Assembly: GCF_000003605.2 (NCBI RefSeq) | Contig: NW_003123905.1 | Span: forward strand, 238,973-276,288 | DNA length: 37,316 bases | Direction of reading: 5' to 3' | Source of the DNA: Saccoglossus kowalevskii | Lineage: Eukaryota; Hemichordata; Enteropneusta; Harrimaniidae | Part shown: positions 16,031 through 37,316 of the stretch, piece after piece | How the letters are laid out: each line of letters opens with the position of its first letter | Position numbering within the stretch: position 1 is the first letter of the stretch | Position numbers and translations under genes: made by a program | Notes under the pieces: generated by a model | The model's database searches: none | The model's input: only the letters and a program-made list of their open reading frames with translations | What the model was told of the DNA's origin: nothing

Positions 16031-16355
16031 GTTCATCACGTTCTATATTACAGCTACACCATTTGTTGAAAATGTTTTCGCTGTCGTTGGTCGTCACGTG
16101 GCTATATTCTAGCCATGTCATTTGTTGTTCACTGTAGTTGGTCGTCACGTGGCTATATTCTAGCCATGTCATTTGTTGTTCACTGTCGTTGGTCGTCACG
16201 TGGCTATATTCTAGCCATGTCATTTGTTGAAAATGTTTTCGCTGTCGTTGGTCGTCACGTGGCTATATTCTAGCCATGTCATTTGTTGAAAATGTTTTCG
16301 CTGTCGTTGGTCGTCACGTGGCTATATTCTAGCCATGTCATTTGTTGTTCACTGT
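16031..16355. repeat. two-variant 51/59-bp tandem repeat with CACGTG core
   Basis: Five good copies carry CACGTG at 16095, 16146, 16197, 16256 and 16315; a degenerate copy precedes at 16037. Spacing is 51, 51, 59, 59, from two alternative linkers (TTCACTG versus AAAATGTTTTCGCTG) joined to one shared core, GTCGTTGGTCGTCACGTGGC then TATATTCTAGCCATGTCATTTGTTG. Each core contains an E-box palindrome beside a TGGCTA-TATTC-TAGCCA hairpin. On the minus strand, part of it reads as repeated MTWLEYSHVTTN, but the stops in the 59-bp variant argue against coding. Confidence 0.95.
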
Positions 16356-17332: not shown

Positions 17333-18330
17333 ACTAGATATAAATTTACAGATTTCTTTATTCAAAAATAATTTTGTCGTTATCAGAGCTCAGCAGATAT
17401 TATAGATTTGAAGTTGAAGTGTGCGATACCAAATCAACATTTGTAGTTATATTCTTCCTAATTTAACTCAATGTTTCTCTTTTATAAGCAGAGGAAAAAT
17501 GAGATACCTATTCCCAAAGAAGCATGTACTGCCCTCGTCAGCAGTGATTCTGGTTAATAATACTGTTTACCGATCAGTTCGATTCGACCACTAATTTGGA
17601 AAGACAATTCAGTGCATTCCTATGTTATATACCTACTTACGTTTGCAGCTATCTCGTCTAGAGAATGTTAGCATTACGTAATATGCCATCTACATAAAAG
17701 ATATATGCACCAGCGTAATGCACGGTATATAAAGAAAGAATAGTCTGGCACTGCGTGGCAAATAAATAAATTGAACAGATGAAATGTTATGTACATAAAA
17801 TTTATCTTAATATTTATCTTACTGCTTCAATAAAATTTGATTTTAACATATATAAATCAAGGTGTAGGTAACATATCAATTTGCTTTTAATAGCAAGGTA
17901 AATTATAAACGACTCGAAGCTATTTATTAATTTTTTAAAGCTATTAGTTTTTATTTTACCTACTAGTGTCAAATCATTATTGGTTAATGTAAATGTTAAT
18001 TAGAAGCTAATTATGACAGAATATTTGGACGTTTCATGTATTTACACAGATGAGGAAGCATGCATGTCTCTAGGATTTCCATAAAAAGGTGATACACTTT
18101 ATTATATTTTTTTTCTATAAAATATAGAATTTTGAGACACTAATATTTGTAAGTGTATCCCAGCTCAAGTCTGCAAGTCGGATGCAATCAACTAACTTCA
18201 TAACCAGATCTCTTCTAACTGTTGCCTATGTTACTGATATATGAGTAGTTTTTTTTAGTTAATTTTCTTGTGCCGGGCGACAGTTCTGGACATTTAGTGT
18301 CACTCTGGATACTGAGTGTCACTGGACATT
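17333..18330. other. no gene seen
   Basis: AT-rich sequence after the gap. A strong GTAAGT donor on the minus strand at about 17640 has no convincing exon behind it. Confidence 0.5.
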
Positions 18331-18514
18331 GGAGTATCACAAATTGCAAGTGCTAGTGCTAACACATTTTGCCACAGAAACCGTATTTATGTTTGAGGCT
18401 ACATGATAGGGCTGTGCGACCATCTCTTTGTCAAATGACAATTGTAATGCGAACATAAGCCTTTGTTGAGTCTGTGGCACACTCACCAAGGGTAGGGGTC
18501 GATCCTTTGATGTC

Positions 18515-18583
18515 AGCCTAGCAGGATTTGAACTTGGTTCTCGATCATGAGTCTGATGGAACAACTACTATGCTACCAGTGAC
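18515..18583 (-). mobile_element. tRNA-derived SINE head
   Basis: On the minus strand this reads like a tRNA: A-box-like TAGCATAGTAGTT (18575-18563), an anticodon loop CTCATGA with CAT, and a B box AGTTCAAATCC (18534-18524), at tRNA-like spacing. The sequence TCAGACTCATGATC resembles the anticodon arm of tRNA-Met. The acceptor stem does not pair properly, so it is not a functional tRNA. The body probably continues to about 18330. Target duplications were not identified. Confidence 0.65.
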
Positions 18584-19099
18584 CGGTTAAACAATTTGAG
18601 TAGTTTGCAAACACCAATTTTATGGTTCTCATTTTGAACTATTAATTGATCATAGTATATTACAAAGGAAGATGGCGCGTTGTAGTTTTCCCGAGTTTTC
18701 GATGCTCATCAAAGCTGTCCGATTTGTTTTGTTTTAAGAATGGGTACTTTGATTTGCTGTTGAAATTCTGAAGTAAAAAAACACACAGATGCACTTCGCA
18801 TGTTATTAAAAGATGGTCAAATGACATTTGTTATCGGGAATGGGTGCTGTATTTACACGGGTTATTATATAGGGGTGAGCTGCACTCTGCCACAAATACT
18901 TTCACATAGAGATTGCAATGGAAACTATACAATTGGCGTTGACTGGCAGAATGAGAAACAAAACTACACAGCATACACACTGACGAAACATACAACTTAC
19001 AAAAGCATAGCATATTCAAAAGCAATATAAATGAATATATTTTAAATAACACTCATGTAGTTATATGTTTATAGTTTATATTTACATAGGTAAAAGTAC
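18584..19099. other. no gene seen
   Basis: Overlapping open frames on both strands (18800-19052) have no domain. No repeat recognised. Confidence 0.5.
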
Positions 19100-19132
19100 C
19101 TTTCGGGTTACTTATACGAGCTTCAATGTCAT
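19100..19132 (-). CDS. candidate micro-exon (33 nt), unit 1
   Basis: Follows a pyrimidine-rich acceptor (CCCTCTAG) and precedes GTACTT. In phase 1 it encodes DIEARISNPK plus junction codons, with no stop, and ends in G like the other micro-exons. The donor is weak, and the conserved intron block is not visible. If real, it is the most 3' exon seen for unit 1. Confidence 0.3.
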
Positions 19133-19908
19133 CTAGAGGGCATTTTGGAGACAAAGATAGTAAAAAAATAGCATAACAAATCATTGCTTTTTTTCTCACT
19201 TAAATAATTATTAATCACCATATAAAAAGAATGTATATTTATGTTATGTTTATTAAACTACTTTATGCAAATGATTTTTCATTTCAGTATGTAGTAACTC
19301 CATATTCTAACCATATATTCCTGTGTGGAAAAAATGGGTAAATGGTATTATAATTTTTTTTAAATAAACCACACCAAAAATATAGTGGATATGGTTATTC
19401 TTGAATGTCAATATTGCTACGACGGCTGCAAAACACACGTAGTCGTTGTACATATCTCAAAGTCACTGTTTATAGATGTTTTCTTACCAAACACAAATAG
19501 CTATAACCATGACCTACTCATTTGCCATCCTAAGAACAAATATAGATATAATGAATGTATATGATTTCATAAATAGCCCGAATTCCTTGCATGTATTCGA
19601 ACAGATCGTGTGATAAAGTACAACCCACCAATTAAATTTGTTGCAGCCCTGTCTATACCTACTCACTGTTGACTATGATTGTGTGGTTTTTTTAACTTAA
19701 TGATCGTTGTCTGATATATTTTATCAACTACAAGCTAATTATGCCTTTTGACACATATTAACATACTTGGCATAATGGACGTTGATGTTTGTATATACTT
19801 TACTCATTGATATGTATATGTATGTATTGTATATTGCTTATCTATTGTTTGTCAATTACTATAGTATTTTGTGTTTTATATGAATCATGCTCGATGACGT
19901 ATAGACAG

Positions 19909-19935
19909 AAAAATAATAATAATAATAATAATAAG
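19909..19935. repeat. (AAT)n microsatellite
   Basis: About nine AAT units, immediately downstream (minus sense) of the 19990-19961 micro-exon. Confidence 0.95.
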
Positions 19936-19960
19936 TTAAATTAATAGTACTCAAATTTAC

Positions 19961-19990
19961 CACTTGATAATGACGGCCGCTGTCTCTTTT
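19961..19990 (-). CDS. micro-exon a (30 nt), unit 1
   Basis: Acceptor AG at 19992-19991 (context TATAGAGTCAG) and donor GTAAAT at 19960-19955. Symmetric phase 1, open: KRQRPSLSS with split codons at both ends. Upstream on the minus strand is the duplicated intron block with a CTAAT branch-like motif then TTGGTGCATATTTCC. Basic and serine-rich, as expected of a secreted short segment. Confidence 0.6.
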
Positions 19991-20516
19991 CTGACTCTAT
20001 AATTAGGAAATATGCACCAATCATTAGATAGGATAGACAGTTGTTATTTGAACAACCCTCGCTATGTGTTTTAAACGACAGGAGCATTGCATGTTTTCTG
20101 TAATTATGTTGATATCGTGGATAATTGCAATAAGATATAGCATGACAGTAGTGCGGAGTTATGCTTCCACTGTCCGCGTATATTAATCAAAGCATGAATC
20201 ATCGCCATTTAATTGTCATAGGCGCGAGAATATTCTGGTCATGGCACAGTATTTGTTACTACAGTTGCTCATACTGTGTCAGCGTGTGCAAAAATGAGAA
20301 TCAATGTACGTTGAACTAATCTTCAAATATGTCATAACAAATCTTCCATTGCTCTCGAGTTATCAACAGTTATATCATGTACATATTGATGTATGTTTAT
20401 ATTTAGTCGATTCAAATGTATTTCGTGTTTTTCATACAGATTACAATTATCATCATGCTATGGAAGTGGATAATATATGCAAAATGATATTTTAAATTAA
20501 TGTTGCTCAGACTTAC

Positions 20517-20540
20517 CTCGTCCCGGTGCCCACCCTTCCT
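20517..20540 (-). CDS. micro-exon b (24 nt), unit 1
   Basis: Acceptor context TTGTTGTGACAG, donor GTAAGT (20516-20511). Symmetric phase 1: EGWAPGR plus split codons. It is paired with micro-exon c: the 31 bp downstream (plus 20486-20516 versus 22262-22292) differ at 2 positions, but the 24 exon bases differ at 7, giving EGWAPGR versus EGWVQEQ. The intron block upstream carries a CTAAC branch-like motif and TTGGTGCACATTCTC. Confidence 0.7.
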
Positions 20541-20879
20541 CTGTCACAACAATTAAACAAGAGAATGTGCACCAAGTGTTAGATTGGATAGACAATTGTT
20601 ATTTAAACAAGTCTTGCTATGTTCGTTAAACGGTGGAAGAGTTGCATATGTTCTGTAATTATGTTGATATCATAGATGAGTGTAATAAATCATAATAGCG
20701 TGACAGTGGTGTGACTATGTTTCAATCATAGCCATGTGTTATTTGTCCTGGCAAAATATTTGTTACTAGAATTGATTTTGCAAACGTGTATACAAACGTA
20801 AATCAAATCATACAATGAGAACCGTTGCAGTTAGTACGTATGTATGCAGTGTGTTTATGTTCGTTGCTATGATATGTCA

Positions 20880-21560
20880 AGAATTATATGAAAATTGATG
20901 AAACTTTATTTTGTATGCATAGATGCTTTGAGCTAATGCGCAGTTTTGATTAAGTTTTGGTTTTACATATTAATTACCTACTTTGCATGATAATTATCCA
21001 ATGTTTAGCTATTCCATTGTTGTTCCACTGATACCTAAAGATCCACGTGCACTCATTGTTTTATGATAAAAATTGGAACCTAGATGCTCTAGATTTATAC
21101 ATTTATTTGGTTAATTTTGGGTGAAAGTCCATGCATATTAATTATCTAATTGTATAAGAACTTTTTATTTTTGGCTTTTCGTCTGATATCTCAAGTAGTA
21201 ATCGACGTAATTTGCATAATTAGTCAAGTGTCAGCTTTTTGCTGATATTTCAAGCATATCAGTACATTTCAATGAAGTTTAGATGTTCTATGACTATGCA
21301 CAGATCTGGGGGGATTCTGACATATAAATTAAAAACTTGCTTAATTAGACAATTTTCGGTTTTTACATTGATATCTCCCATTGCAATGAAACGTGGTACA
21401 TAAATGGTCTGTGACATTGTGTTACATCAAATCTGTTCATATGAATTACCTAATTTACATAATAATTATAGTTCAGCTTTTACATCAATATTTCAAGTAC
21501 GTATCTTATTTCGATAAATGTTGGTACATAAATACTCAAAGAAAAAGCGACAAATTAGTT
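20880..21560. repeat. degenerate tandem copies of an AT-rich element
   Basis: Several imperfect copies of a unit containing TTTGCATAATTA (near 20982, 21212 and 21450) and TTTCAATGAAACTTGGTACA variants (near 20891, 21266, 21381 and 21505). A related copy lies at about 32900-33070 in unit 2. It fills the large intron between micro-exons b and c. No coding. Confidence 0.6.
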
Positions 21561-22292
21561 TTGGGTTTATATACATCCATATTAAACGCCCAATTTGCTA
21601 CAGAGGTTAAAACGACAGGCCGGGTATGCGGAAAATTAGCATATTTTACCTGGCAATATTGATAGAGCACAGGTGAGCAGATTTTGCGCGCAGACGTCTT
21701 ATATTTGTTATAAAATAACCGAACATACATGTTATAATCTCGATATGGCATGACAACCTTGAATAACCTCAATGCAACGTCCATGACTGAAACGAAGATA
21801 TGAAGCAAGCGCGAATAATACAGCAAGGACAATTCCTCATAAAAACTGACGTCAATTCATCCGAACCGTTTTGATGAAGCTATTCCAAAACAATTGTTTT
21901 CATTGCAATTGGAGCAAAATTTAATTCATCGAATTTGTATGAATCACAACCCTTTCTCAGCAAGCGTCACTTCGTAGTTTATTTTGCAATGCCGAATCAT
22001 GGAAAAGAAATCCGTTTTAATGGATGTAAAAGGAAGATTTTATCAAAAAAATATATAATTCTGTGTCTGAAGGTTAGCTCCTTTCATATATGTCATAAAA
22101 ATTATTTCAGACTTTTAAAACTATCAATGAACCAACGTCGTCAGCAAAATATTATGTATATGAATTGTAGTGTGTCTGTGTCTATTTAAATGTATATTGT
22201 GATTTCCATAAGCGAGTCATAATTAGCATGCTGTGGATGTGGATAGAATATACAAAATGATGATATTTTAAGTTAATGTTGCTCAGATTTAC

Positions 22293-22316
22293 CTTGTTCT
22301 TGCACCCATCCTTCCT
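22293..22316 (-). CDS. micro-exon c (24 nt), unit 1
   Basis: Acceptor context ATTGTTGCGACAG, donor GTAAAT (22292-22287). Symmetric phase 1: the base left by the 22871-22844 exon (A) plus AG gives Lys, then EGWVQEQ. It is thus directly splice-compatible with exon 2 of unit 1. Its intron block is a diverged copy of that around b. Confidence 0.7.
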
Positions 22317-22702
22317 CTGTCGCAACAATCAAACAAGGAAATATGATTTAAGTAAACACAACTTATCCAAACTCGCATTGTCATTTAAACAATTAAATAT
22401 TTGTATGCATATTGTATGTTAATATTATAGATCATTGTTATGAAGCATCATAGTGTTCCTATATGTTGATTTGTTATTATTAAAAAGTCACAATCTAAAA
22501 ATTCTAATAATTAAAATACTATTCATCGCAGTCCATAATAGGGCAAGAGTTTGTTCTGATCTTGGAACAATATTTTTATCGAAGATGCGCATGCTGCCTT
22601 ACATGACAAACAACATACATCAATGTACGCTGAAATATACGGTATTTATAATTATGGTAGTTAACATTAATAAACATGCAATCATTTTAAAATAACAAGT
22701 AA

Positions 22703-22729
22703 ACATACACACATACATACATACATACA
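22703..22729. repeat. (CATA)n microsatellite
   Basis: Short CATA/ACAC run in the intron between exon 2 and micro-exon c. Confidence 0.9.
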
Positions 22730-22843
22730 AAACCCAGCATAACATTACATTATTATCCGATTCTAAACGTCTACATACACACAAATATTGAAAACTGGAG
22801 TATGCATTGACGTATGAGAGCTTAACATTTAATGAAAACTTAC

Positions 22844-22871
22844 TTCTTGACGAAGGTCGATGACCTTGAGC
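22844..22871 (-). CDS. exon 2 (28 nt) of secreted micro-exon gene, unit 1
   Basis: Good acceptor (TTTTTATTTAAACAG) and consensus GTAAGT donor (22843-22838). Phase 0 in fits the signal-peptide exon; phase 1 out fits every micro-exon. It encodes AQGHRPSSR, so signal cleavage probably occurs close to this junction. The paralogous unit 2 exon encodes AQRGGHFR; only the Ala-Gln start and the phases are kept. Confidence 0.75.
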
Positions 22872-23383
22872 CTGTTTAAATAAAAACAAAAATATACAAA
22901 AGTCAAAGTTACATGAACGATGGTGACATATGTAAAATAAATCGACTGGTGGCAATGTACATTGTTATGAATGTGCCATTATAATTTGTCGTGATCATCT
23001 TAAAAACCCGTTCAGTCACAACTATTGTTTAATTATATTTGAGTTGTGTTCCTAAATAACAGGTATAATATTAAAAGTACTAACAACAAAGAACAGCTAT
23101 AGACAGTGCTCAAATTACAGACTACTGAATTAAAATATTGGTAACATAGTACGCATTATAGAAAAATTGTATAGCACGTAGTTGTGAATAATCTGTACGA
23201 TTTAATGCCCACGTTAAGTATTTGTTTTGGGTATTCAATGAAGTAGCTCGTATGTCATTCGATGTGTCAGTTGGATATTTTGTATGAATTTATAAATACC
23301 TAATGGAAGACAATTTGCATGATATCCAATGTTAAAATAAAAAAGAACATCAGATGTGTATGATTGGGAATACTTAAACTCAC
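22872..23383 (-). other. putative intron
   Basis: AT-rich, between exon 2 and the next candidate exon. No other feature seen. Confidence 0.45.
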
Positions 23384-23528
23384 AAAATACTCGTTATTAG
23401 CAGTACAGTTTGGTAATTCGAAAACATATATTGCAGGGCGGGGGTGATAATGGGCAACGAAAATATTGTCTTTCGATAAAATTGTGTCAAAATGCTTTCT
23501 GATTACCAATGTGCCATTTGTAAAATGC
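23384..23528 (-). CDS. candidate 145-nt exon, unassigned
   Basis: Flanked by a strong acceptor (ATTTTTTTTAGCATTAG) and a GTGAGT donor (23383-23378). In phase 2 it reads HFTNGTLVIRKHFDTILSKD then NIFVAHYHPRPAIYVFELPN and CTANNEYF, leaving in phase 0. It could join exon 2, but its phase-2 entry cannot follow the phase-0 signal exon, so it may be an alternative upstream exon or a chance frame. Not recognised as a domain. Confidence 0.3.
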
Positions 23529-23874
23529 CTAATGCTAAAAAAAATAATCGAAAAACGAATGTGATATTTTGATCTGATAAAAAAAAATTCTATGTTACCC
23601 ATATAAATTTTAATGGATATCCCACTCCCAGTAACCATCTTAATAGATAGAAACACACATATCTCACTTGTTATTGTTGTTTTATTGATCACGTATATGG
23701 GTGTATTACATTGCTATATTTTAAAAGATTGGTATAGTGCATATGATTTATTATATAATATTTTGCGGCATATTTGAGTTTATTTTATTCATTTGTGATG
23801 AGTATAGATCAAGTACGTCACATCTGCATGTGATTTAGGTGTATGTATTTCACAACGATAGCGGAAATCCTTAC

Positions 23875-23937
23875 CTTTATATCTACGACCAAAAGTAAAA
23901 CAACACATAATACCATCATTGCTTTATAGCTCGACAT
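23875..23937 (-). CDS. signal-peptide exon, secreted micro-exon gene, unit 1
   Basis: A 63-nt exon: ATG at 23937-23935 then MSSYKAMMVLCVVLLLVV and DIK, ending in phase 0 at a GTAAGG donor (23874-23869). This is a classical secretion signal with a basic residue, a hydrophobic core and then the Ala-Gln start of exon 2. A 3' splice site (TTTCACTTTTCTACAG) ends exactly at the ATG, so the 5' UTR is on another exon or is added by trans-splicing. Downstream on the same strand are exon 2 (22871-22844) and micro-exons c, b, a. The paralogue at 36760-36698 has the same length and about 8 differences in 63. The family is not recognised. The product would be a short secreted, basic, Gly/Ser-containing protein assembled from micro-exons. 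Confidence 0.75.
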
Positions 23938-25051
23938 CTGTAGAAAAGTGAAATTGAAATTGAATTTGATGTTAGTGGCATTATTATTCATAGACATGTT
24001 GATTCTAGGATTGCGTTGGAGAATATTTGCATTCAGGTTATTTATTCTTGATGCTGTCACTCATATCCAATAATTGCAAACGGGACCAACATGTTGCATT
24101 GAAAAGCAAATTCTAAAATCTTTGGTTCGAATCCACAATATTGCTATAAAAATTTTATAAATTTTATGCATATCATCTCACCTTGTAACAAAGTGCTTGT
24201 TTCTAAATATTTTGTTTTTTTCCATTCTAGTGTGGTTCTTGATATCAGTATGTAGCTTGCAATGTTCCACTGCTCTTTTTTTTGAGTAGTAGGTTATTGT
24301 GAGGGAGCGACACAGGTTGTCAGTAAGTGTAAACACAGACTTTGGTAAGTGATAGTGTACGTAATTCTGCTATTGTTTAACAGGATTAGGCTATATTTTG
24401 AGTGTGTGTGTGTGTATCAGAGTATAGTTTATTTTCTTTGAACACCCAAGCACATTTTCCAATATGCTAACATATGCGACGTGAGCCCGATATTTTACAA
24501 TATTCATTGTTATTTTTAATGTATTGCAAATATTCTGAAACAATGATTTTATAGGAATCTGGATTTTAGCAATGCTAGCATAGTGTAGTTCACGGCAACA
24601 TTATGATATCTATAATCATATATTCAAATCAACCATCGGCATTTTATTCAGAACTGCTGAAGAATTTCAAACAGTCGAATATAGTTAATTATAACCAGAT
24701 TGATGGCAGACAGAATTTGAATACACTTGCTAATAATCATAAAATTATAGAAATGTGTACTTTAAGATTACATTTATATTTCAGTATCTCTATATCTGAC
24801 GGAGTAGTATTGGGTGAATTGCAGTAAATTTCACTTGATCCCATTATTTTGTGGCAGTTATACCTCCCAATAAATCATCTGTTCATTAGTAACATTGCAA
24901 CGTCTTTTATAGTAATTACACTCTGAAGCATATGTTTACAGTTTTCTATCAGATACAGTAGTCTAATTCCCGTTTGATAAATATCAACGTGATCCATTTG
25001 TAGTATTTAATGCATATGAATCTGAAAAACTGTAAAAAATAAGAAACTTAC
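23938..25051. other. no firm gene; one weak micro-exon candidate
   Basis: A 21-nt symmetric phase-1 candidate at 24202-24182 (GTGAGA donor, AAATATTTAG acceptor) is too weak to annotate. A short (GT)n run lies at 24402-24416. A 74-codon plus frame (24603-24827) has no support. Confidence 0.4.
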
Positions 25052-25087
25052 AGCTCAATCTACCTCTGCTTGTGATGAATGCTTCTT
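25052..25087 (-). CDS. micro-exon i (36 or 24 nt)
   Basis: Acceptor context CTGACGACGAAAG. Two donors keep the exon symmetric: GTAAGT after 36 nt (25051-25046) or the weaker GTAGAT after 24 nt (25063-25058). Phase 1 is open in both: EAFITSR, extended by GRLS in the long form. Sequence after the short donor (GATTGAGC) resembles the intron after micro-exon b. It lies upstream of the unit 1 signal exon, so it belongs to a third, incomplete unit. An eroded relative of its acceptor region lies at about 33820-33860. Confidence 0.45.
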
Positions 25088-26540
25088 CTTTCGTCGTCAG
25101 ATAGGGAGTATGTCATAGATCGAGAGTGGGTTTAGTCTCCACTCTAAAAATAGCAGTTGTAAATAGTTGTTGTAAATATCAGAAGATATAATAACGAGTG
25201 GGTGTTTAATAAAAATAAAAAACAGGGAACTATCCGGATGTGTTTGAACGATTTTGTTCTTACGTGGTTGAGTGGTACTTAATAGTAGTATGTAATTTCC
25301 TAATATCAGTGTTTGTTTCGTTGTTTATTGAGTCAAGATTATTGCGACTGTAGAAAATATGCTTTAAGTTAGTGTGAACACAGACCTCAGGTGCAGCTGA
25401 AAAAATAATCGATTAGTGATTGGGTTAGTTGGCGTGTAGTTTTTGTGCATATGCCGGACGGCTTGCGAGTGGAGTGTCTGCCTGTTATCAACACCCCAGA
25501 TCTTGAGCTTATTCTGTGATGTGCTTTTGTCTCAGGAGACGCCAGAATAACTATAAGGAACCAGACTACATCTAAACTGTATGTACACCAAAGACAGTTG
25601 ACTTTGTTTACACAAAGATATAGTGAATTCAATTTGTCTGTCTATGGGATGACTGAATGTGTATATTAGTTTCATATGATTACATTCAGAACCAGAACAC
25701 ACCAATATGTATACAGGGGATGGTGGACCGCGACCTTTGCCCTGGACATTTGTCAGTGTATTTTGACTACCTCTATAAGACTATGGCGAACTGAATTTCT
25801 TTTAACTATGTATATGGATGCACAGTGCGATATTTCAACGACCTTAACACATGAAACAGTGGACTTCTGTGTGCTAATTTGTTGTCGTAGGAGTGGAGAT
25901 GCTATAACAATGCCTATACATAGGGAATAGTGGCCGGTGGTTCCACTACCCTTATATAGAAAATGGCGAAAATATATTTCAAAACCTTTATAAAAGAACA
26001 GTAGTCTGCGTTTCCACTGCAAGTATATGGTTAGTTGACCGTGTTTATAGTACTTGTATAAATAAGGATCAATTAGAACAAAATGTTGATGATTAAAATG
26101 TAAGAAAAATACATGCATTAGTCTGGCTTTTATTCAATAGTGGAACAAAATTAAACATAACATTACGTAAATGTGTACCCAGATCATTAGGGCCTTGTGA
26201 TTGTCAGATGTCTGTTTACATGCCTAGGAGGCCTGGGTCGTCATGTAGTGTATGTGACATGCATGATGACGTATCCCATTATGGCTACAGACATACACGG
26301 TGTGGAGCTGATAGACGAGAATGCGTGTCAGTGACACCTGGTTACATTTAAATGATTTTAATTTGAGTTTATTCTGCATCAGGCATTTCCCTGTTGGAGG
26401 GATAATGGGTGTTTAGGCATGGTCTGGGCTGATGGAGATGTCCCCGTTACTGTTTATGATAATTGTTGTTGATTTAGGTTTTTACCAACGATTATTCAGA
26501 TTATAGTAACTTTTCTGTCTTTTGAGTGTTTAGGCATCCC
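25088..26540. other. no gene seen; imperfect short duplication
   Basis: Two similar stretches about 190 bp apart (near 25765 and 25948) share CTACC...TATA...ATGGCGAA. Open frames on both strands between 25676 and 26118 have no domain or splice support. Confidence 0.4.
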
Positions 26541-26544
26541 AGGG

Positions 26545-27090
26545 TGGTGCGTTAGGCGCTTTGGTATGCATTCCTATCGCAGCTTTTCTATTAATTTCAA
26601 AAAACCTGCCGGACCTCTTGGAAAATGGAAATATTTCGGATGACATCTACTTGCACTTGCAGTTGGTACACTCGAATTACATATCCGTCCCCCAACCATG
26701 ACGTCCCTCCGAATTTTCTTGTAAGACCAAAGTTCCCGTTTTGCCGATTGTGCAAACATATAATTGTCCCAGTACTCCATTCAGCATTGTGAGGTCGATT
26801 GGAATGATCGGTATACCTGTCACTTCACTGTCATCGACACTATCACCTTCGTCATCATCATCAACATTTTCTTCGTACCAAGTTGTCGTTATTTTCCTCT
26901 CTGACACGGACATATTGTTTACATGGGAGTCGTCGCTGTCTGTAGCTCAAAGCCATTCGTCAGGCTGGTTGTAATACGAACCTCGGTCGCTATCCTTCAA
27001 CTTTTTAGCAGCGTCTGAGTGCATCTTAACCTTGTTCTACTTTGGTCTGCAACGCTTTCTTCTAATCTTAATGGGAGTAGGATTTACTTG
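26545..27090 (-). pseudogene. Mutator-like transposase N-terminal fragment
   Basis: Reading leftwards in essentially one frame with in-frame stops: AAKKLKDSDRGSYYNQPDEW, an acidic DDDDEGDSVDDSE tract, a TMLNGVLGQLYVC segment, then GTLVLQENSEGRHGWGTDM, a stop, FECTNC, another stop, and GRFFEINRKAAIGMHTKAP. The HGWG motif, the C-x2-C pair after it and the FEINR-x4-GM motif are the usual N-terminal zinc-binding region of Mutator-like transposases in animal genomes. The catalytic DDE part is missing. It shows that Mutator-like elements have been active here, relevant to the MITE at 5397-5627. Confidence 0.6.
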
Positions 27091-27690
27091 TTCCATACTA
27101 GACACAGTGGAATGAGTGAACTGAACCAAAGACACTAGTGTTTTTGAATGAACTCCGTCTTAATATGGAATAACCCCATTTCCTGTACTCACTCAAACAA
27201 AAGAGATGCAAATATCAAAATTACGAATGGTGGCAAATAAACATCGCATTATCTTGAACAAATCTTTGAAACTGATAGGCACACAGATTAAACTTGTGTT
27301 GTTGATTTTGGCAAACACTACTGAGGCTGCCCTGTTTCCCTTCAGGAAATATACATTTTAACCAACTTACATGATATTCTATGTTATGTTGACTTTGTCA
27401 TATGAAAGTTTATAGTGCAGTTCGTCAATTAATAAAGAAATGTGAAAATCGTAATTTTCAACACAAATAACAGTCTCGCTACCTTAAATGGTGCATTTGC
27501 ATTAGGATCTGATTGATATCCGATAAAATCCCATTGAGGAGTCAACAACAAAAAAAACAAACCGCAAAGTGATAAATTCAAGAAGAGACACGCGCAATGA
27601 CAAAATGATAAGCCCCATATAAATAACTGGTGGCAACATATCTAAAAAATATCTACTTAAAGTCTGACACTAAAATACAGCTTCAACTCA
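27091..27690. other. no gene seen
   Basis: AT-rich. A minus-strand reading QWDFIGYQSDPNANAPFK ending at a GTAGCG donor near 27490 looks faintly exon-like but has no matching partner. Confidence 0.4.
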
Positions 27691-27691
27691 C

Positions 27692-27694
27692 TAT

Positions 27695-27725
<31 letters not shown>

Positions 27726-27728
27726 TTC
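27692..27728. repeat. (ATTT)n microsatellite
   Basis: About nine ATTT units. Confidence 0.97.
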
Positions 27729-27950
27729 TATTGAATTGGTTAGGTTAAAAGGAAGGGCTTTTATATTGTAGTTTCCTCGATAGTGGTGCAGATGATGTTG
27801 ATGATAGATGTCTGATACTAATCTGTTTGCTATAACAGAACTTCGGAATATACTGATACAGTTTAAGATAAATCTTCCATGATGACATAGTTAGCAATTA
27901 ATGGTATACCCCTAGCATAAATTATATTTGTTAACTCGAGGAAAAGGTCA

Positions 27951-28103
27951 TTGACAATTCCCCCGTTTCCCTTATGCTCACATTATTGTCTGTTTTGTAG
28001 AGAAAATAATACGTCTTGTGCTGTTCATGTGAATGGATCAGCAAATGATGAAATATTTGAGCTAATAACCACCGGGGTACATATCGCACCCAAGATTGTA
28101 TTG
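27951..28103 (+). CDS. possible plus-strand exon
   Basis: An ATG-started frame reads MTIPPFPLCSHYCLFCRENN then TSCAVHVNGSANDEIFELIT and TGVHIAPKIVL, ending at a consensus GTAAGT donor (28104-28109). A textbook acceptor (TTGTCTGTTTTGTAG) ends at 28000, so the exon may instead begin at 28001 and enter in phase 2. The CLFC pair followed by an ELI-x-G-x-x-I stretch is faintly like the start of a ZAD-type zinc-finger region, but the second Cys pair is not in the window's visible exons. This is the only plausible host coding exon on the plus strand in this half. Confidence 0.35.
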
Positions 28104-28522
28104 GTAAGTGAAACTCCAAGCATGCCTTATTGAAGGACTAGATTTATTTTGGATTTCAGTATACGTTTTACCCGAATAATAGTTTTAGAAGATATCAAAC
28201 CACTTGTTAGTTTAAGTGTATGCATTTTATTAAGTCATATTTACCTTTTAAAGACTATTTGCAATGTGCTCTAATGTGACTGTGGTATAGTTTTGCGAAC
28301 AAGCATTGAGCTATTTAAGCTGTATAGAGGTCAGAAATATTGAACGCATATATACTGTTGTGTTTAATCAACTTTGCATCATTGTCAAAATGTATCATAT
28401 TACACATAGTTCTAATATACCGAAGTGATCCTTAAAACATTATGTCAGACTATACATAAAGTCAATGGGCGGTTAACACTGAATTTAGTTAAAACAAAAT
28501 ATATACACCGAAATAAATTTAC
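28104..28522. other. no gene seen
   Basis: AT-rich sequence, possibly intron of either neighbouring candidate. Confidence 0.4.
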
Positions 28523-28546
28523 CTCGTCTCTCGATTTGTAGTTGTA
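28523..28546 (-). CDS. candidate micro-exon k (24 nt)
   Basis: Acceptor ACCAACCTAAG and donor GTAAAT (28522-28517). Symmetric phase 1, open: QLQIERR with split codons, ending in G. The conserved upstream intron block is not clear, so this is weaker than a-g. With micro-exon i it may mark an incomplete unit between units 1 and 2. Confidence 0.35.
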
Positions 28547-29354
28547 CTTAGGTTGGTAAAACAATATTGTTGGCAAGATCATATAAGCGTACATATAATT
28601 AATTCTTCCACAAACTGGTGTTTGACATAAAATTATTTTCTGAATGTAATGCCATGACCCATCTCATTATGCGTTGAATTACGTTGAATTACGCCACCTT
28701 CGGTGATTGTCTAGTTGTCATATATACCATAATGTATTTTACGAGTTCCTATACTTTTCATTCAATTTTGTTAATAATGTTTGCATAAAATTGAATGCAT
28801 TAGTCCATACATATCTTTAGTAAATAAACACTTCAATGACACATGTATGTCCCCGTAAAACACTTAGTGTTTTATTTTGAAAAAATGTATTTTTGTGTGT
28901 TTAAAATGTTCTTCATTTTTTGCAAAAAAATGTTTTAATAACAACTTCCCAAAACACTACTGCTTTGATAAAAAACACAGATGTTTTTTTTTTATATAAT
29001 AAACCATTTTTTTATTACATCAATGTGCTTTCAATTACAACTGTGTGTTTTAATAAAAAAAACATGTGAATGCTTCCAAGAGTTACAGTGTAGCAGACAG
29101 TACGTAAATAATCACTAGTCAGTGTATGGATTACACTTTATATTCTGTAGACTGGTGATATAAAAGTCGTGAATAATCATGCCACGGTTTATGCTGATAT
29201 GCTGCTGTGTGTCAATAGTTATGTTACTGTTCTGTCATGTAATTTTTCGATACATGATTTGTTATTTTGTGAATCGCTGCATTACTTTGCAACACTAATC
29301 ATCAATTTTTACTCTATATTTTGTAACAGTTACTGATTACAACAATAAATGAGG
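28547..29354. other. no gene seen
   Basis: Very AT-rich, with repeated AAAACAC...GTGTTTT-like stretches near 28855-29060. No coding. Confidence 0.5.
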
Positions 29355-29959
29355 CTAAAGAAAATACAGCCTAATGGTTTAGTTCAGTTTCGACGAATGC
29401 CATGCGGACTTGTGAGTGCACCAGCCTCTTTCTCCTGTATGATGCGTATTTTGATGGAAATTTAATTGATGACATTTTAATTTATTCAAAATCATGGATG
29501 GAGTATATACAGATTGCACAGGACGTTTTGTTTAAGGAAGGCAGGATTAACCGCAAGACCTTCAAAGTGTTACTTTGGTTTATTGGTCACAAGGTAGGTG
29601 ACGGTACTGTAAAACATGTCTTTTTAGCTTTTTAGCTGTAAATTCGCTAATTCAAGATATAGTTAATTTAACAGAAATTATATTCTCACAGGAAGATAGT
29701 CGACACTTAAGACGCTAAATTAAGATTCTGTTAATTCATGCCAAGAGTCAAATCCGCTAAAACTGCATGCAGCTTATTGCAACATGTTCTACAGTATTTT
29801 GCAAGTATTGTCAGATAAAATAGAAGCCATACAGTCATTTTTAGGCATGGCTGGATACTATCGCAAATTTGTACCAAATTTGGCGACAATAATAGCAGCT
29901 CCCCTCAGAGAATTGAGCAGTAAAGGTCAGCCAAAACATGTAGTCTGGGGAGATTCCTA
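29355..29959 (+). pseudogene. Ty3/gypsy-type pol fragment (reverse transcriptase)
   Basis: Reads PNGLVQFRRMPCGLVSAPAS then FSCMMRILM, shifts frame near 29460 to LIDDILIYSKSWMEYI (the YxDD box with Tyr replaced by Leu), and continues to GHKVGDGTVK near 29615. About 190 bp of unrelated sequence intervene. From about 29812 it resumes with DKIEAIQSFLGMAGYYRKFV and PNLATIIAAPLREL to VVWGDS and a stop. The normal residues between IEAIQ and FLGMAGYY are missing, an internal deletion. No LTRs, integrase or gag were found. Inactive. Confidence 0.8.
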
Positions 29960-31766
29960 AGTACGCATCTTTAATCACTCAAAAGTACAAGACTAATATT
30001 AATGACAAATGCTTCACGTTAAATATTGATTTTGTAATATAGGCCATTTTCGATAGTCGAATAATGAATTCCGCGTGCAATACGACAACTTGATGACAAC
30101 CGAAACTAAAAAACTGCTTTTGGGCAGACGGACATCTCTCGAATCCCGTAGCTGTTATACTTATTACATGTATATATATTACATATATGTCAAAGACGCA
30201 AATCATATATACGATGCATTTATACTAGTGACTATACAATCTATCAAATCTGTGGCGGTATTATGCATTTTGTGATTATGCGCGAATTAGCGAATTTACT
30301 AAATACAAATATTGCGTATCTTAAAATTGATATTACTGCAATTGATTGATTTCATATTCGTATTTGATAAACGTGCGATGAAGTAAAGCACAGTCCCTCT
30401 ATAGATACTACAAGACAATGTACACATTCCGAGGACAATCCGCCTAGCAGTATTAAGTTATACATTTCACGTGCCCGGATAGAATAAGACATACCCCTTG
30501 TCTATACCACATTCAACAACCGGAATGCACGAACTCCCAAATCTCAACACAATGGTTTTTAAGACACGACAATGAAAACGACTATAATACAACGTCTACA
30601 TCATCAACACCAAAACGAACACGTTGTTCTGCCACCCGCATGGTTGGTGCTTTTTAATTTGATGAAAAAAATATTTAGAAAAATCGGATATGAAAGATCA
30701 CGTACACATTGAATGACCTTTGACTGAAATATTATAGTAGTTTATTTAACTAGGACGCACAAACTTTCTACAGTCTTGTTTGGTCCTACCCTATTTTGCG
30801 GAATTTAAAAAAACTGGCCTTAAAATCTCAAAATAAAACGTCTCATCGTGCATGCTGATTGTCGTCAGCGCCCAATGTAAGGGCGCCCTCATCGAGATAC
30901 AACTACACCTTTGTTTTTAAGGTTATAGGGCGCAAAAAAACAGTGTGAATAGCGTCATTAGTCATGTATGAAGTGGGAAACCAGAGAACAACTTTGAAAC
31001 GAAACTATTATAACATTCCGTAAACAATCTTTAAAACTTAAGGAATCGAATCGTGTCAGGGAGTCATGTGGATCTTAACATTTTGGTTTGAATATGACAA
31101 ATCAACATCGTTTATGACATTCCCACCCATACATTATTTACACGTATTTTTATACAGTTTCATTCAATTTTAAACCCATACGAACTCTGCCATCACGATA
31201 TTCATGCACTATATAGTCGGCGTCGGTGCCATATATTTGTCTATATTTATTTCCTGCCCATATACTTTGATTAGTCAATATGTAATTATAGAACTAAATT
31301 TGATAATCATGGCCTTCATTTCACCGATTATTAAGGGTTTTCTTATACGAAGGTTGTCCTTGGGATTATGATAAACACGGAATTAGGTAATCATATTAGT
31401 TTATATGGAAACGATAGAGGGCCTTTTCTGGAAAAGATAGCAACATGGTTGTGTAAAGAGGAACTTAATTGCACGGTTACTTGTTTCTCTCTACTTTATT
31501 AATTGATAAATATGACAAGTACATTTTATATCATGCGTACTACACTATTTTATTTCAATGTGTTTGTTATCAGTATAATGACATGTCCATGGTTAGCGAT
31601 ATATCAGCTTTAACGTCCTAGTTTACAGCTCTGTGTAAGAACAAATATTAAAATGTAAATAGGTCAAATCATGAAGATCATAATACTGCACAGATATATT
31701 GTAGATATATTATGATCGTCAAATTGTGTATGCTTCCAAAGTCAGAATTTCAGAATGGCTACTCAC
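29960..31766. other. no gene seen
   Basis: Mixed AT-rich DNA. Frames on both strands at 29979-30275 lack support. A GCGCCC...GGGCGCC pairing near 30868-30886 is a small hairpin of the kind seen in repeats. Confidence 0.45.
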
Positions 31767-31796
31767 CAACAACAAGTAGTTAGGAACGGCCACCTC
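31767..31796 (-). CDS. micro-exon h (30 nt) or terminal exon, unit 2
   Basis: Strong acceptor (TTTCTTTCTCTGAACAG) and strong GTGAGT donor (31766-31761). Length 30, ends in G like the others. In the family's phase 1 it reads GGRS and then TAA. It is therefore either the terminal coding exon of unit 2 or a micro-exon that has gained a stop. Phase 0 would be open (EVAVPNYLLL) but does not fit its neighbours. Confidence 0.5.
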
Positions 31797-31947
31797 CTGT
31801 TCAGAGAAAGAAATAGTCTAAGTGTGTTAATAACACAAAATAACGTCAATTTGTGTGATCGTATACTATCACTCGTTTGAGTTTACTTTTCTATTATCTG
31901 TCAATTAACAACCTTTTGTGTTTGATCGGTGTGAATAATATATTAAC

Positions 31948-31971
31948 CTCTTCCTCTGTTTACTCTCCTTT
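31948..31971 (-). CDS. micro-exon d (24 nt, or 30), unit 2
   Basis: Acceptor ATTGTAGAGACAG; an alternative TTGTAG six bases earlier gives 30 nt. Donor GTTAAT (31947-31942). Symmetric phase 1 in both forms: RRVNRGR with split codons; strongly basic. Preceded by the shared intron block (ATATTTTTTTAATTG). Confidence 0.6.
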
Positions 31972-32217
31972 CTGTCTCTACAATTAAAAAAATATGCAAC
32001 GTGAATTGGCAATGTTTTCGAAATGCTCAAGCAGTAAAGGGTAAGGTATGAGATATTTAATCTTAATTATTCTCGATCCTTATACGGTTGCGCAAATGGT
32101 CACGGATGTACTATCGTTTGTAATAAAATATTGATTTCGTGTTTTCTGTATACGTAGTACGATTCACTCCAAGCATGTAGATGTCAATAGAATATACACA
32201 ATGTTGCTACAATTTAC

Positions 32218-32244
32218 CATCTCCTGGTCTTCAGTCTTTCTTTT
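32218..32244 (-). CDS. micro-exon e (27 nt), unit 2, with in-frame stop
   Basis: Acceptor TTGTAACGGGAG, donor GTAAAT (32217-32212). Symmetric, but phase 1 gives KKD then TGA. Its intron block is well conserved, with TTTAACGCTTGGTGCATATT upstream. Being symmetric, it could be skipped without harming the frame; it may be a dead exon or an alternative end. Confidence 0.5.
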
Positions 32245-32572
32245 CTCCCGTTACAATTAAGCGAATATGCACCAAGCGTTAAATTGGATTGACAGTGTTT
32301 ATTCTAACCACACATTATGACATTGAAACGATTAGAATGGTCGTATGTATTCTACTAGTATGTTGATATTATAGATAATTGTCATAAATCATTAAGCCTC
32401 ATAGCATATTATTTTTACATGATTCAACATTTAGTTCTTCTACTGGTACAACATTTATGATGAGAGGTGCAAATGTAGTTTTGCAATATACATACATAAC
32501 TGCACAAAATGATGTGAAATGTGAATAATATACATAATGCTATTGGGCTTAAGTACAATTACTTGATTTTAC

Positions 32573-32599
32573 CTTTATCTGGTCCCAAATCTCTCGTTT
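32573..32599 (-). CDS. micro-exon f (27 nt), unit 2
   Basis: Acceptor TTGAAGTGGCAG, donor GTAAAA (32572-32567). Symmetric phase 1, open: TRDLGPDK with split codons. The intron block upstream includes TTCTAACGCGAGTGCATATT, with a CTAAC branch-like motif. Confidence 0.6.
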
Positions 32600-33305
32600 C
32601 TGCCACTTCAATTAAGAAAATATGCACTCGCGTTAGAATGTAAAAGAAGATGTTTATTTAAACAAACTAGCTATACAATTTAAACGATAGAAAGGTCACC
32701 AATGTCCTGAGTATATTGGTTCGCAAATGTAAATCAAAGTAGATCACTGTGCGTCTAATAGTGTTTATACTTCTGTTAATTTACAATAATAACTAACAAG
32801 ACAGAATAACAGCATTTGCTGACGCTTTTGACTCCCGGGTGCGAAAAACACAATAATGGTCTTTGCGGTTATTACATTAATTATCAGATTTATAGACATA
32901 CATGTATTTTAATGAAACTTAGTAAATAAATGTTCTGGGTTAGTACTCAGACCTGGCTAAGTTTGGTTGAAATTTGTGCATATCAATTTGGTAATTTGCA
33001 TGTTAATTAGCCGTTTCTAATCCGTTTAACTCTTTTATGTACTATTCAACTGATTTCAATGAAACTTTGGGCATATATATCAAAAATATCACCCAAGGGT
33101 GGCGATCTTGTTATCTCCGAGCATTGTTTGTACATGGATAAAGAAACTCAAAGACAAAGGCGGAGCCGTTTTTATATTAATGATCATAAAAACATTTCTT
33201 ATTGTGTTGATGATAACATTGTCAATGTAAATTTCATCTGCTGGAATGTTAATGAGTTAGGTTGATATCACACTATTGGCTTCAACTATTGGTACTGAAA
33301 TTTAC

Positions 33306-33341
33306 CTTCTTTTGGTATGCCTTGATTTCTCTTCATTGGCT
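33306..33341 (-). CDS. micro-exon g (36 nt), unit 2
   Basis: Acceptor TCTATATTGTAG, donor GTAAAT (33305-33300). Symmetric phase 1, open: PMKRNQGIPKE with split codons. The preceding exon leaves G, so the joint codon is GAG (Glu). Other internal AGs could shorten the exon but would break symmetry. Intron block upstream: TTTAACACTTGCTGCATATT. Confidence 0.6.
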
Positions 33342-34612
33342 CTACAATATAGAAAATATGCAGCAAGTGTTAAATTGGTGTCTACGGTGTATAAACCACA
33401 CTCGCTATACTCACATAATGATTGATGGATTGTATGTATCCTGCCAATATGCTGAGACAATAGATCATTGTCATAAATAACCATGGCATATCATCAGTGT
33501 GTCACATTACACGTATAATAAATAAAGCGCAGTGTCTTGTCATTCGTCAATTAAATTATTATATGTATAAAGATCATGATTTATATCGTGCATGATAGTG
33601 GTTTGATCTTATCATTCAATTGTCACATAATGTATGTAATAATTCGTCGCCGTGTGTCATATGACGCGATATAGATCTCGACCCTTCGCATACACGTAGA
33701 CAAAAGAATATTGCGTCGAAATGATTAGTTTATATCACATGTCATTGCCATAAGCATCATAGTGTAGGAGTATTGTGTTTTCGCGATTGAAAAATCACAT
33801 TACATGCACAATAATTAAAGCTTATGTCATCGCCGTTCGTCGTCAGATAAAGTTAGTTCTGATATATATAGTATATATATATATATTTATGTTTGTATTT
33901 TTTATAATAAATAATCGGGAAGCTGCAGTTTAAAATGAAACCAAAATATAAAAGAAATAGAGAATCAAGGACTTAAATAAATATATAAAAAAAATCATTT
34001 AGGCTATATTATATGTTTGTCAATTAGATAATGTCTTGTTTTTTTTTTCTATAATTGGTTAATTGTTGATATCATTTATTATTGGTGTGTATATTATATC
34101 TACAGTTTGTTAACATATTCTGTCTTTATATACTTCATCGGGTTTTAACATGCATCTGGCAGTTAAAACGAAAAACAAGGGCATTTTGTAACGAAATATA
34201 TAGTCTGATGGTAATTGAATATTTTTCGAGAAAATACTAATTGAGCACAAGTTAGCTCATTTTTTTAAACAAAGAATACAGTTTTTATACTCACAATATG
34301 AGAAAAAAACAAACTCATATCTATCTCATCTTCATATGTCATAACACAGTTGTTAACAATCATCAACAAAATTCGTTGTTTTAATGGTGATCTCTCCGGA
34401 AATCTACGAAATTGTTTGTGTGTGTGTGTCAATCACTATTATTTGGTCCATAACATACATCTTTGTTTGCATAAGCAACAGACAAAACAATCAAACAAAC
34501 GAAACTAACGCCAGCAAAAACTATTCTACGAATAATTTGATAACTGGATTATGCAAGGATTTATGGTGAATAGTATTATATGGTTTGTAATCAACAATTA
34601 CTGAATACTAAC
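33342..34612 (-). other. large intron with eroded duplicate blocks
   Basis: Copies of the micro-exon intron block recur without a usable exon: ATCATTGTCATAA-type motifs near 33465, CATCATAGTGT near 33755, and two related CACATTACA...TTCGTC stretches near 33500-33550 and 33795-33850. A (TA)n run lies near 33860-33890. These look like units whose exon has decayed. Confidence 0.45.
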
Positions 34613-34637
34613 CTCGAAAATGGCCACCACGTTGAGC
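34613..34637 (-). CDS. exon 2 (25 nt) of secreted micro-exon gene, unit 2
   Basis: Acceptor ATTTATATAAATAG, donor GTTAGT (34612-34607). Phase 0 in, phase 1 out: AQRGGHFR, leaving G. Paralogue of 22871-22844: same position in the gene, same phases, same Ala-Gln start, length different by exactly one codon, and otherwise different residues. Confidence 0.75.
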
Positions 34638-36697
34638 CTATTTATATAAATATCAAGGTATGTAAAAGTAAGATTATCATTATTAACAACAATGTATTAC
34701 AAGAAGGGTCACACAAATTAGATCGAGAAGATTTGATGTGAAGTAATTTTTTATGAATATAATGTCACGAAACTCACAATTGAAATTCTTCTGAGTAAAG
34801 TGTTATGTCACAATTATATTTAAATTTCTTCCATGAATGACAGATGAAAGTATTATATGTGTTTGGCAATTGTGAGGCGAACAATACAAACCGTACATAA
34901 ATCAGTTTGATAAATTAGTTTAATTGTCTACATATGCATATTTGATGTTGGTAATTGGTGTAGAAATTTATATGCAACATGATCTATTTTATGGATTCAT
35001 ATTCATAAATAAACATTTTCGAAATTATCTAACAAATATTACATGCATTCATCGACCAATCAAGAGAATTATGTTCAATGCAAAGAAACACAAAGTGCAT
35101 GTGAAATGAACATGCGTGTACATGCTAGTTCAAATTGACATGTCTGAAGTGTAGTTTGGGATATGTATAGAATGGTAGCCAAAGCATGTAAAGTTAACTG
35201 ACAATGTCAATGACTGTAGTTTTTGTAACAGTTTGTTTTTGATTTAACACATAGGCAATAACTGCTAATTTCAATTTGGTTGGTATCTCAAGAATCAAAT
35301 AAAAGTTAATGCTAGTTAGGTTGAGCGTGAAATGAAACATAGTAATATTTATTCTAAATTTAGCAGCAAGATTTCAGTGTAATTAGAAATACGGTTTGAT
35401 ACAGGACTGACTGAATTGACACCAAATTAAAATACGACCAGAAGGCGATACTGATAAATACACAGATGAAGACGATGACAATAAACCAGAATTGATATCC
35501 ACAGCAGCTTTACTGTGTGTTACTCAAGACAAAACAACAATAAAAAATTACTACTACTGAATCTCAAAATAACATGAAAAGATTAAATGTTTTGCGGATG
35601 AAACTATGTGTCATTAATTACTTTAGATTGAGATTAAAAAATAAATTAAATAATTTCAAGAGGAGAAGAGAGAGAAAACCCGGATCCACCACATATAATT
35701 AAGTGATAGTTAACATTGTTTATAGTATGAAAATAATCATAAGAATAATAGAGTTTGACTCCCGAACTTTGATGGTGAGTGGCAGAAATCATATATCAGA
35801 AATATGGAAATATGACATGGTAGAATGCAATGAGCAAAACCACAAAGCATAGTCAATATGGTCCATGGACTAAAATAGGGAAAGATTATTATCAAACAAT
35901 ATAGCTGAAAAGCTTCTTGGCTTGTAGGGTACATCACCACAGTTCGTTAACCCAGAGAAGAACAACACCACACAATCATCCCACAAACTGTCTTGTATGT
36001 CATTTACCATTGTGGAGGAATTATAAGCAAGCGACTATACAAAGATGATGGGATAGACAAACGACGTATAATGTGATAATCGATACAATGTTTCAATGAA
36101 TTTTGAAGACATTATTAGAACATCCAATATTGAATAAATTAATTAAATTAAGAGTCATCGCCACTGGAAGTGCAGTGATGCAACATGATGTATCAGTATC
36201 ATTAACACATTAATATGATACATCAGAGGAAGCAGTTTTAGGCAGAATGTTTCTTCTTGGGACTGACATCATATTTTAGATATTATGACCCACAAATGAT
36301 GTTATGATAACAGAGGTTTGAAGAGTTGACAAGATGATTAATTAACACCCAAATACTGGCATATAAAGATGAAGAGAGTGACATTCATGATTGGATAAAT
36401 TGGATGATAGTTTCTGAGCTGCACTGATGATATTGATACTGATGAGTTCGTCATGCAATATATGCATATCAATTGATATATCAGAATGTAGTTATTAAAA
36501 TGGCGTCATCATTCATCATCTTTGCAAAACAAAACATGGAGTCATTATTGACAAGAACATGCAATTAAAGCAGCACGTGTAAGTCAGCTAGTGTTGGTAT
36601 TCATAAAATTGAGTATGATTTATAATGTCATTCATATGCAATGTGTAGTTTATATGTTACATAACTGTGTGTACTATAACATATATACAAATTATAC
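34638..36697 (-). other. putative large intron
   Basis: Between the unit 2 signal exon and exon 2. AT-rich, with no gene recognised; the frame at 34924-35109 (plus) is unsupported. Confidence 0.45.
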
Positions 36698-36764
36698 CTT
36701 TATATCAGCGACCATAAGTAACACAACACATATTACCATTATTGCTTTATAGCTTGTCATCCTT
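36698..36764 (-). CDS. signal-peptide exon, secreted micro-exon gene, unit 2
   Basis: ATG at 36760-36758, then MTSYKAIMVICVVLLMVA and DIK, ending in phase 0 at GTATAA (36697-36692). As in unit 1, an acceptor (CATTTTTATGACAG) lies just before the start, here four bases upstream, so the 5' UTR is spliced in cis or trans. Codon count (21) and most residues match the unit 1 exon, while exon 2 and the micro-exons differ, so the leader is conserved and the mature part variable. Downstream order on the minus strand: exon 2, then g, f, e, d, h. Together this predicts a short secreted protein; splice choice among symmetric exons could give many variants. Confidence 0.75.
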
Positions 36765-37316
36765 CTGTCATAAAAATGAGAGATGTTCAATAAATTGTAG
36801 TTGTAATCAAATTGCTGTTGTCATGACGATACTATGGAGCGACGCCCTCAGTGGTGAAGTCCACATGCCGTCATGACAACGCATGCAAAGTATTAGGACT
36901 AATGGTTGAGCGATTAACATTCAGTGTCAATCGGGCTTATGGCGACGATTGAAGTTGTCATAAATATCTGTGTCACACGCAACGTAATATTACCGTAATT
37001 GGTATAGTACAGGTGTGATGGTTCAAATACCAAAATGGCAACAGTAACATAAAAACTTCCCTGGCGGCGATGATAACATACGAACACGGAGCCAACAGAC
37101 GAGGTTTCAACTGGTACTGGTATTATTATACTCTGCAAACATCAAGTACAATAACTCGGTAAAACTCCAAACCTCCAATAACTAGATACTTAAACTCCAA
37201 CACAATTCAACGAGATCTCCGATCTTATCTCAGTGCTGAACAACTCCCCTATATATACTCACACTGTCTATAAATAGACCATTACATCAGCATACATAAT
37301 GAGTCTGGAACTTACT
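36765..37316. other. upstream region of unit 2; no gene seen
   Basis: Would contain the promoter or 5' UTR exon of unit 2 if cis-spliced. A minus frame at 37138-36914 has no support. No clear TATA or initiator can be assigned. Confidence 0.4.

Follow-up and report, generated by a model that had tools for sequence, protein, structure and literature searches.

Micro-exon genes (MEGs) of schistosomes and tapeworms are the closest described systems to the two genes reported here: they encode short secreted proteins with a signal peptide in the 5' exon and small, mostly symmetric central exons (PMC4350168, PMC10526429, PMC4671649, PMC7653826). According to these papers, the coding region consists mostly of very small symmetric exons, the signal part has a lower ratio of nonsynonymous to synonymous substitution rates (dN/dS) than the mature part, and the genes are apparently restricted to platyhelminths (PMC4350168); the micro-exons are mostly multiples of three, from 6 to 81 base pairs (bp) long (PMC10526429); MEGs 26-32 have two long flanking exons, 5' and 3', and 26 of their 33 microexons are symmetric (PMC4671649); and tapeworm MEGs grow by tandem duplication around a common signal-like motif (PMC7653826). 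An operational definition asks for at least seven exons, at least half of them micro-exons (<70 nucleotides (nt), divisible by three), with at least four consecutive (PMC7653826). Here we analyse a stretch of 37,316 nt of contig NW_003123905.1 (hereafter the window), whose minus strand carries two predicted genes of comparable design, gene A (36760..31554) and gene B (23937..19254).

A sequence-only reading of this DNA had likened the plan of the two genes to that of MEGs, and their signal exon and symmetric micro-exons do match the cited descriptions; slower evolution of the signal part than of the mature part and expansion through tandem duplication add to the likeness. The genes differ from MEGs in having only three usable micro-exons each (four in gene A if exon A7 is counted) and a short signal exon. 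Measured against the operational definition, gene A has seven predicted exons with a run of four (A3-A4-A6-A7) and falls within it only on condition that A7 and A8 are genuine exons and A5 is not used, and gene B, with six predicted exons and a run of three, falls outside. As for long flanking exons, the last exons of A and B reach AATAAA after 66-76 nt and the 5' exon has 63 coding nt. Genes A and B are MEG-like in design and would work like a MEG, the likeness being one of architecture. A label of MEG membership was rejected, the relation to MEG families having been sought only through Pfam and PDB searches, which gave no relevant match, with no other sequence comparison with these families made.

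Aphid bicycle genes, with about 17 exons on average, a minimum of five and CYC motifs, also offer a parallel: many small internal exons nearly all start at codon position 2, as in A and B, and the genes diverge fast and encode putative secreted effectors (PMC9168663). They are set apart by exon number, six to seven being predicted in A and B, and by the CYC motif, the mature peptides of A and B being cysteine-free. Neural eMIC microexons are single inserts in conserved neural proteins, whereas the mature peptide of A and B comes mostly from micro-exons. They share with A and B very short exons, weak splice sites and a UGC upstream of the acceptor, part of the element TGCAYATT in A and B; in flies, UGC is reported to be enriched near the acceptors of eMIC-dependent microexons (PMC8797185).

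Annotation pipelines detect MEG-type genes only with difficulty, and the papers found describe such genes from flatworms; among the literature matches listed, which cover subscription journals thinly and are no proof of absence, the aphid bicycle genes were the only micro-exon gene family recognised besides the flatworm ones, and no MEG-type family of another phylum appeared. If the host is not a flatworm, the combination of a conserved export signal with freely evolving, removable micro-exon modules would have had more than one origin. With seven homologous exon units available for direct comparison, including one that has decayed, the locus also permits a clean test of whether splicing grammar can stay conserved when the peptide does not.

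Exon plan and predicted products

Both genes follow one plan: a 63-nt signal-peptide exon, a 25- or 28-nt exon beginning Ala-Gln, micro-exons of 24-36 nt and a terminal exon bearing the stop codon and AATAAA. The gene spans given above run from start codon to AATAAA, and the exon models are predicted from the DNA. Thirteen predicted exons (seven in gene A, including the decayed A5, and six in gene B) each gave one exact match, on the minus strand, to which all exon coordinates refer; A8 was located separately. That the genes are paralogues on one plan, as the sequence-only reading proposed, is borne out by the seven homologous units described below and by the signal exons A1, MTSYKAIMVICVVLLMVADIK (36698..36760; 63 nt coding, donor GTATAA), and B1, MSSYKAMMVLCVVLLLVVDIK (23875..23937; 63 nt). 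These are identical at 55 of 63 bases, and five ungapped intervals of their flanks at 23-37%; with gaps allowed, a BLAST match (E 1e-14; 112 columns, 75.9%) continues into the intron for about 45 bases. Exon 1 has been either constrained or shared recently, the main evidence being this sharp identity boundary and not the ratio of replacement to silent changes. Judged by hydropathy, the A1/B1 peptide is a putative signal peptide, with a core of 12 residues that averages ~3.5. Acceptor-like sequence, TTTTCTACAG, stands immediately 5' of the B1 ATG (23938-23950, minus strand), and another such site (36761-36780, minus strand) lies 4 nt before the start codon of gene A. A 5' non-coding exon or a spliced leader may be joined at these sites.

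The Ala-Gln exons A2 (AQRGGHFR, 34613..34637; 25 nt, phase 0 to 1) and B2 (AQGHRPSSR, 22844..22871; 28 nt) are related by a local BLAST-type match (E 8e-5). Signal cleavage is predicted at A|Q, giving an N-terminal Gln, because this position suits the general -3,-1 rule for signal cleavage sites.

The usable micro-exons of gene A are A3 (33306..33341; 36 nt), whose acceptor is the distal member of an AG pair spaced 6 nt, A4 (32573..32599; 27 nt) and A6 (31948..31971; 24 nt, or 30 nt with an upstream AG), which has a weak donor, GTTAAT. A5 (32218..32244; 27 nt) is decayed: a TGA interrupts its frame, and its acceptor, GGGAG, is poor. Those of gene B are B3 (22293..22316; 24 nt), B4 (20517..20540; 24 nt), which has the highest splice score, and B5 (19961..19990; 30 nt, or 36 nt with an upstream AG). 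The sequence-only reading had spoken of many micro-exons of 24-36 nt; the lengths stand, and the number shrinks to three usable ones per gene, with A7 (31767..31796; 30 nt, phase 1, donor GTGAGT), which reads GGGRS and then a TAA stop, as a possible fourth in gene A. All six usable micro-exons keep the rules set out in that reading, being divisible by three, in phase 1, with an AA or AG start and a final G.

The present analysis adds the gene ends. The last exon of gene A, A8 (31549..31630; acceptor CACAG), gives E-L-stop when A7 is skipped and carries AATAAA from 31554, 76 nt in; that of gene B, B6 (19249..19320, entered from 19320), gives GIYG-stop, with AATAAA from 19254, 66 nt in. Both genes would thus have plausible ends, an in-frame stop followed by AATAAA, and as judged from sequence they are probably tandem paralogous protein-coding genes of an animal, of the secreted-peptide type.

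The full-length conceptual products have 63 (A) and 60 (B) residues, or 41 and 38 after the assumed cleavage. The conceptual mature peptides are strongly hydrophilic, with a grand average of hydropathy of -2.0 and -1.7 and isoelectric points of 11.5 and 9.7 in A and B, respectively. A Pfam search of both peptides gave zero matches at E up to 1, and a PDB sequence search gave one match for A (E 0.066) and four for B (E 1 to 1.7), all chance-like. In viral and in bacterial and archaeal contigs, where an animal gene is not expected, 89 and 99 pattern matches were found, none of them confirmed as relatives. RNA families and tRNAs were searched for at default thresholds and none was found.

Homologous units and splice-signal conservation

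The micro-exons are surrounded by seven homologous units of about 340 bp, mostly intron sequence, six around usable exons and one, that of A5, with an in-frame stop. A profile of the unit, built from the very seven copies that it recovers, finds these at E 9.8e-81 to 3.3e-29, and the next best hit on both strands of the whole window has E=1; no further copy exists in the window, and all seven lie on the minus strand inside genes A and B. The nhmmer matches delimit a stretch with three units around A3, A4 and A5 (32105..33505), the unit around A6 (31867..32111), the unit around B3 (22159..22473) and a stretch with the units around B4 and B5 (19817..20718). In a tree of the units, which like the conservation windows and dinucleotide columns below comes from an unanchored alignment that understates the acceptor, the A group is separate from the B group (Shimodaira-Hasegawa-like support 0.977), so that either the modules multiplied independently in A and in B or homogenisation acted within each gene. 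The A unit closest to the B units is that of A5 (pairwise identity 0.60-0.63 vs 0.46-0.55 for the other A units). By these comparisons the micro-exons appear to have multiplied through duplication of an exon with its flanking intron, one copy having decayed. Apart from the units, a stretch of the B3-B4 intron (20868-21032, minus strand) resembles one of the A3-A4 intron (32882-33054, minus strand) at 62%, as either an inherited intron segment or a common repeat.

The most conserved of 268 eight-column windows is TGCA[CT]ATT (TGCAYATT; 0.96). A second, separate peak is the donor, AGGTAAGT (0.83-0.84), and a third window, TTTAAATA, lies further upstream (0.81). GT occupies the donor column in 7/7 units and reaches this at no other column; among six control dinucleotides only CA, inside TGCAYATT, likewise reaches all seven. 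The element lies at 33355..33362 (minus strand) 5' of A3, and further minus-strand copies have their 5' base at 32626 (A4), 32271 (A5), 31998 (A6), 20571 (B4) and 20016 (B5). The window holds eight copies on the minus strand, six of them at micro-exon units, and four on the plus strand; only the B3 unit of the seven is without one. The start of the element precedes the exon by 26-31 nt in A4, A5, A6, B4 and B5, and by 21 nt in A3, whose AG sits 6 nt further out. Since TGCAYATT contains UGC, the parallel to eMIC microexons could be a lead; a branch-point role is as likely, and the element could be simply inherited.

With the alignment anchored at the exon ends, pooled identity is 0.665 over the last 60 bases before the exon and 0.803 over the first 10 intron bases, compared with 0.494 in the exon bodies, 0.535 further upstream and 0.509 downstream. 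The anchored exon lengths, 24-30 nt, are divisible by three in 7/7 units, and 6/7 are open in phase 1. Selection seems to maintain the splice signals and the reading frame and little of the exon peptide sequence. A faster divergence of exon bodies than of introns was considered from the unanchored alignment (core identity 0.389, 11/222 windows as low) and dropped: the acceptors of B3 and B4 were out of register there, and 131/361 windows are as low as the anchored value. From the same unanchored alignment come gap runs divisible by three (9/15 in exons vs 25/164 in introns), which were not used.

Proposed cassette splicing and its alternatives

The sequence-only reading held that any micro-exon can be skipped without loss of frame. 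In silico, including or skipping the three micro-exons of each gene gives 16 combinations for A, ending in A7 or A8, and 8 for B, and all 24 keep an open reading frame up to a stop codon; without exon 2, the frame is lost in both genes. In A4, A6 and B5 another AG lies 6 nt upstream, and its use adds two in-frame codons, so that, from copy to copy, the homologous acceptor has apparently shifted by six bases without loss of frame. We propose that, in transcripts spliced in the predicted order, the signal exon and the Ala-Gln exon would be followed by several micro-exons, symmetric and in phase 1, and by a last exon with the stop codon, to give a secreted peptide no longer than about 60 residues with the signal still attached. 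Repeated duplication of exon and flanking intron within each gene would supply the micro-exon copies. Exons 1, 2 and the last would be obligatory for the frame, and each micro-exon would be a removable module of 8-12 residues (5/6 full-length modules begin with Glu). Cassette skipping and the 6-nt alternative acceptors would then diversify the products into a small pool of peptides that are basic, free of cysteine and probably unstructured. Because of the architecture and the likeness to MEGs, an extracellular pool released from a gland or epithelium, defence or venom-like, would be the most likely role. The peptides would be varied by exon duplication, with cassette splicing possibly contributing. 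As a whole, it is conceivable, and we put it forward tentatively, that a non-flatworm animal independently evolved a MEG-like family in which the splice grammar (donor, acceptor, upstream element, phase and length) is kept while peptide modules drift and multiply and are cassette-spliced into a secreted pool.

Several observations weigh against the cassette-spliced, secreted family: (i), five of the six changed codons between A1 and B1 alter the residue, all mildly, and these replacements are not fewer than under random placement (5 vs a mean of 5.6). (ii), the A1/B1 differences include no stop or hydrophobic-to-polar change, and while 69% of random placements give one, 31% equal the observed result, which makes for weak support. 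(iii), conservation is no higher in exon bodies (0.494) than in introns (0.51-0.54), so that no coding constraint on the micro-exons is visible. (iv), B5 ranks 36/253 in purine content within its unit and is not outstanding. And (v), A6 has a splice score below 0, its donor being weak, and the acceptor of A5 is poor.

Both genes might instead be spliced with all their micro-exons constitutive, an account that disputes only the variable splicing, is compatible with the gene models and is itself a possible one, short of probable. Symmetry alone does not prove skipping, since copies can inherit it: duplicating a single phase-1 symmetric exon yields symmetric copies automatically, and selection for skipping is not needed. 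The weak sites and the in-frame acceptor pairs of A4, A6 and B5 favour variable use without proving it.

The peptides themselves recall, in some respects, a prepropeptide of neuropeptide or hormone type, in which basic doublets and G-R pairs would serve as cleavage or amidation sites and duplication would multiply the peptides: KR occurs in A3 and B5, RR in A6 and GR before EKR in B, the B product has a C-terminal Gly, and E-G-W is common to B3 and B4. Beyond this EGW, however, inspection finds no repeated peptide core between modules or genes, and Pfam gave zero matches, and we consider such a precursor unlikely.

Purines make up 77% of the six usable micro-exons. Sets of equal-length pieces taken at random from minus-strand 17401-37316 average 50%, and 0/20,000 such sets reach the exon value; the GC content of these micro-exons, 47%, is reached by 11/20,000. 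Compared with non-overlapping windows, the exon is the most purine-rich window of its own unit in 6/7 cases. Purine-rich exons are typical of splicing-enhancer content, which could help exons this short to be recognised. A generic splice-site matrix, confined to the rules of the sequence-only reading and hence partly circular, gives 10 minus-strand and 3 plus-strand candidates at a score of at least 0, and 30 Markov simulations gave a mean of 1.2 and a maximum of 4; six of the ten are A3, A4, B3, B4, B5 and the alternative B5 acceptor, and the other four lie at 1352, 2674, 24226 and 25087. These purine islands, together with a donor among the strongest constraints, lengths all divisible by three and the confinement of the copies in the window to one strand of the two genes, make it very improbable that the seven units belong to a repeat or transposon family whose splice-like ends arose by chance, with only exons 1 and 2 genic, even though their homology is mostly intronic and the exon bodies are unconserved. 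Equally improbable is a pair of decaying pseudogene remnants that have lost expression: the stop and poor acceptor of A5 and the weak donor of A6 would fit decay, but without A5 both genes keep open frames, a signal exon, a stop and a polyadenylation signal.

Other features of the window

On the same strand as genes A and B, an open stretch at 2475-2957 contains a Mucin2_WxxW domain (PF13330, E 8e-7), with a phase-1 acceptor candidate at 2674, and probably represents one exon of a further gene for a secreted multi-domain protein. On the plus strand, 6482-9098 holds a degraded long interspersed nuclear element (LINE) retrotransposon in several frames, with a reverse transcriptase (PF00078, E 9.5e-15) and an endonuclease-like match (PF14529, E 5.9e-5) below the cut-off of that family; a weak piece of reverse transcriptase lies at 11844-12152 (E 0.022). 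The LINE, like the WxxW exon, hints at an animal as the host. Two tandem repeats are also present: a 55-bp unit in four copies at 824-1045 (99% matches), and a 59-bp unit in about five copies at 16060-16347 (91% matches), near a stretch of N (the window has 730 N).

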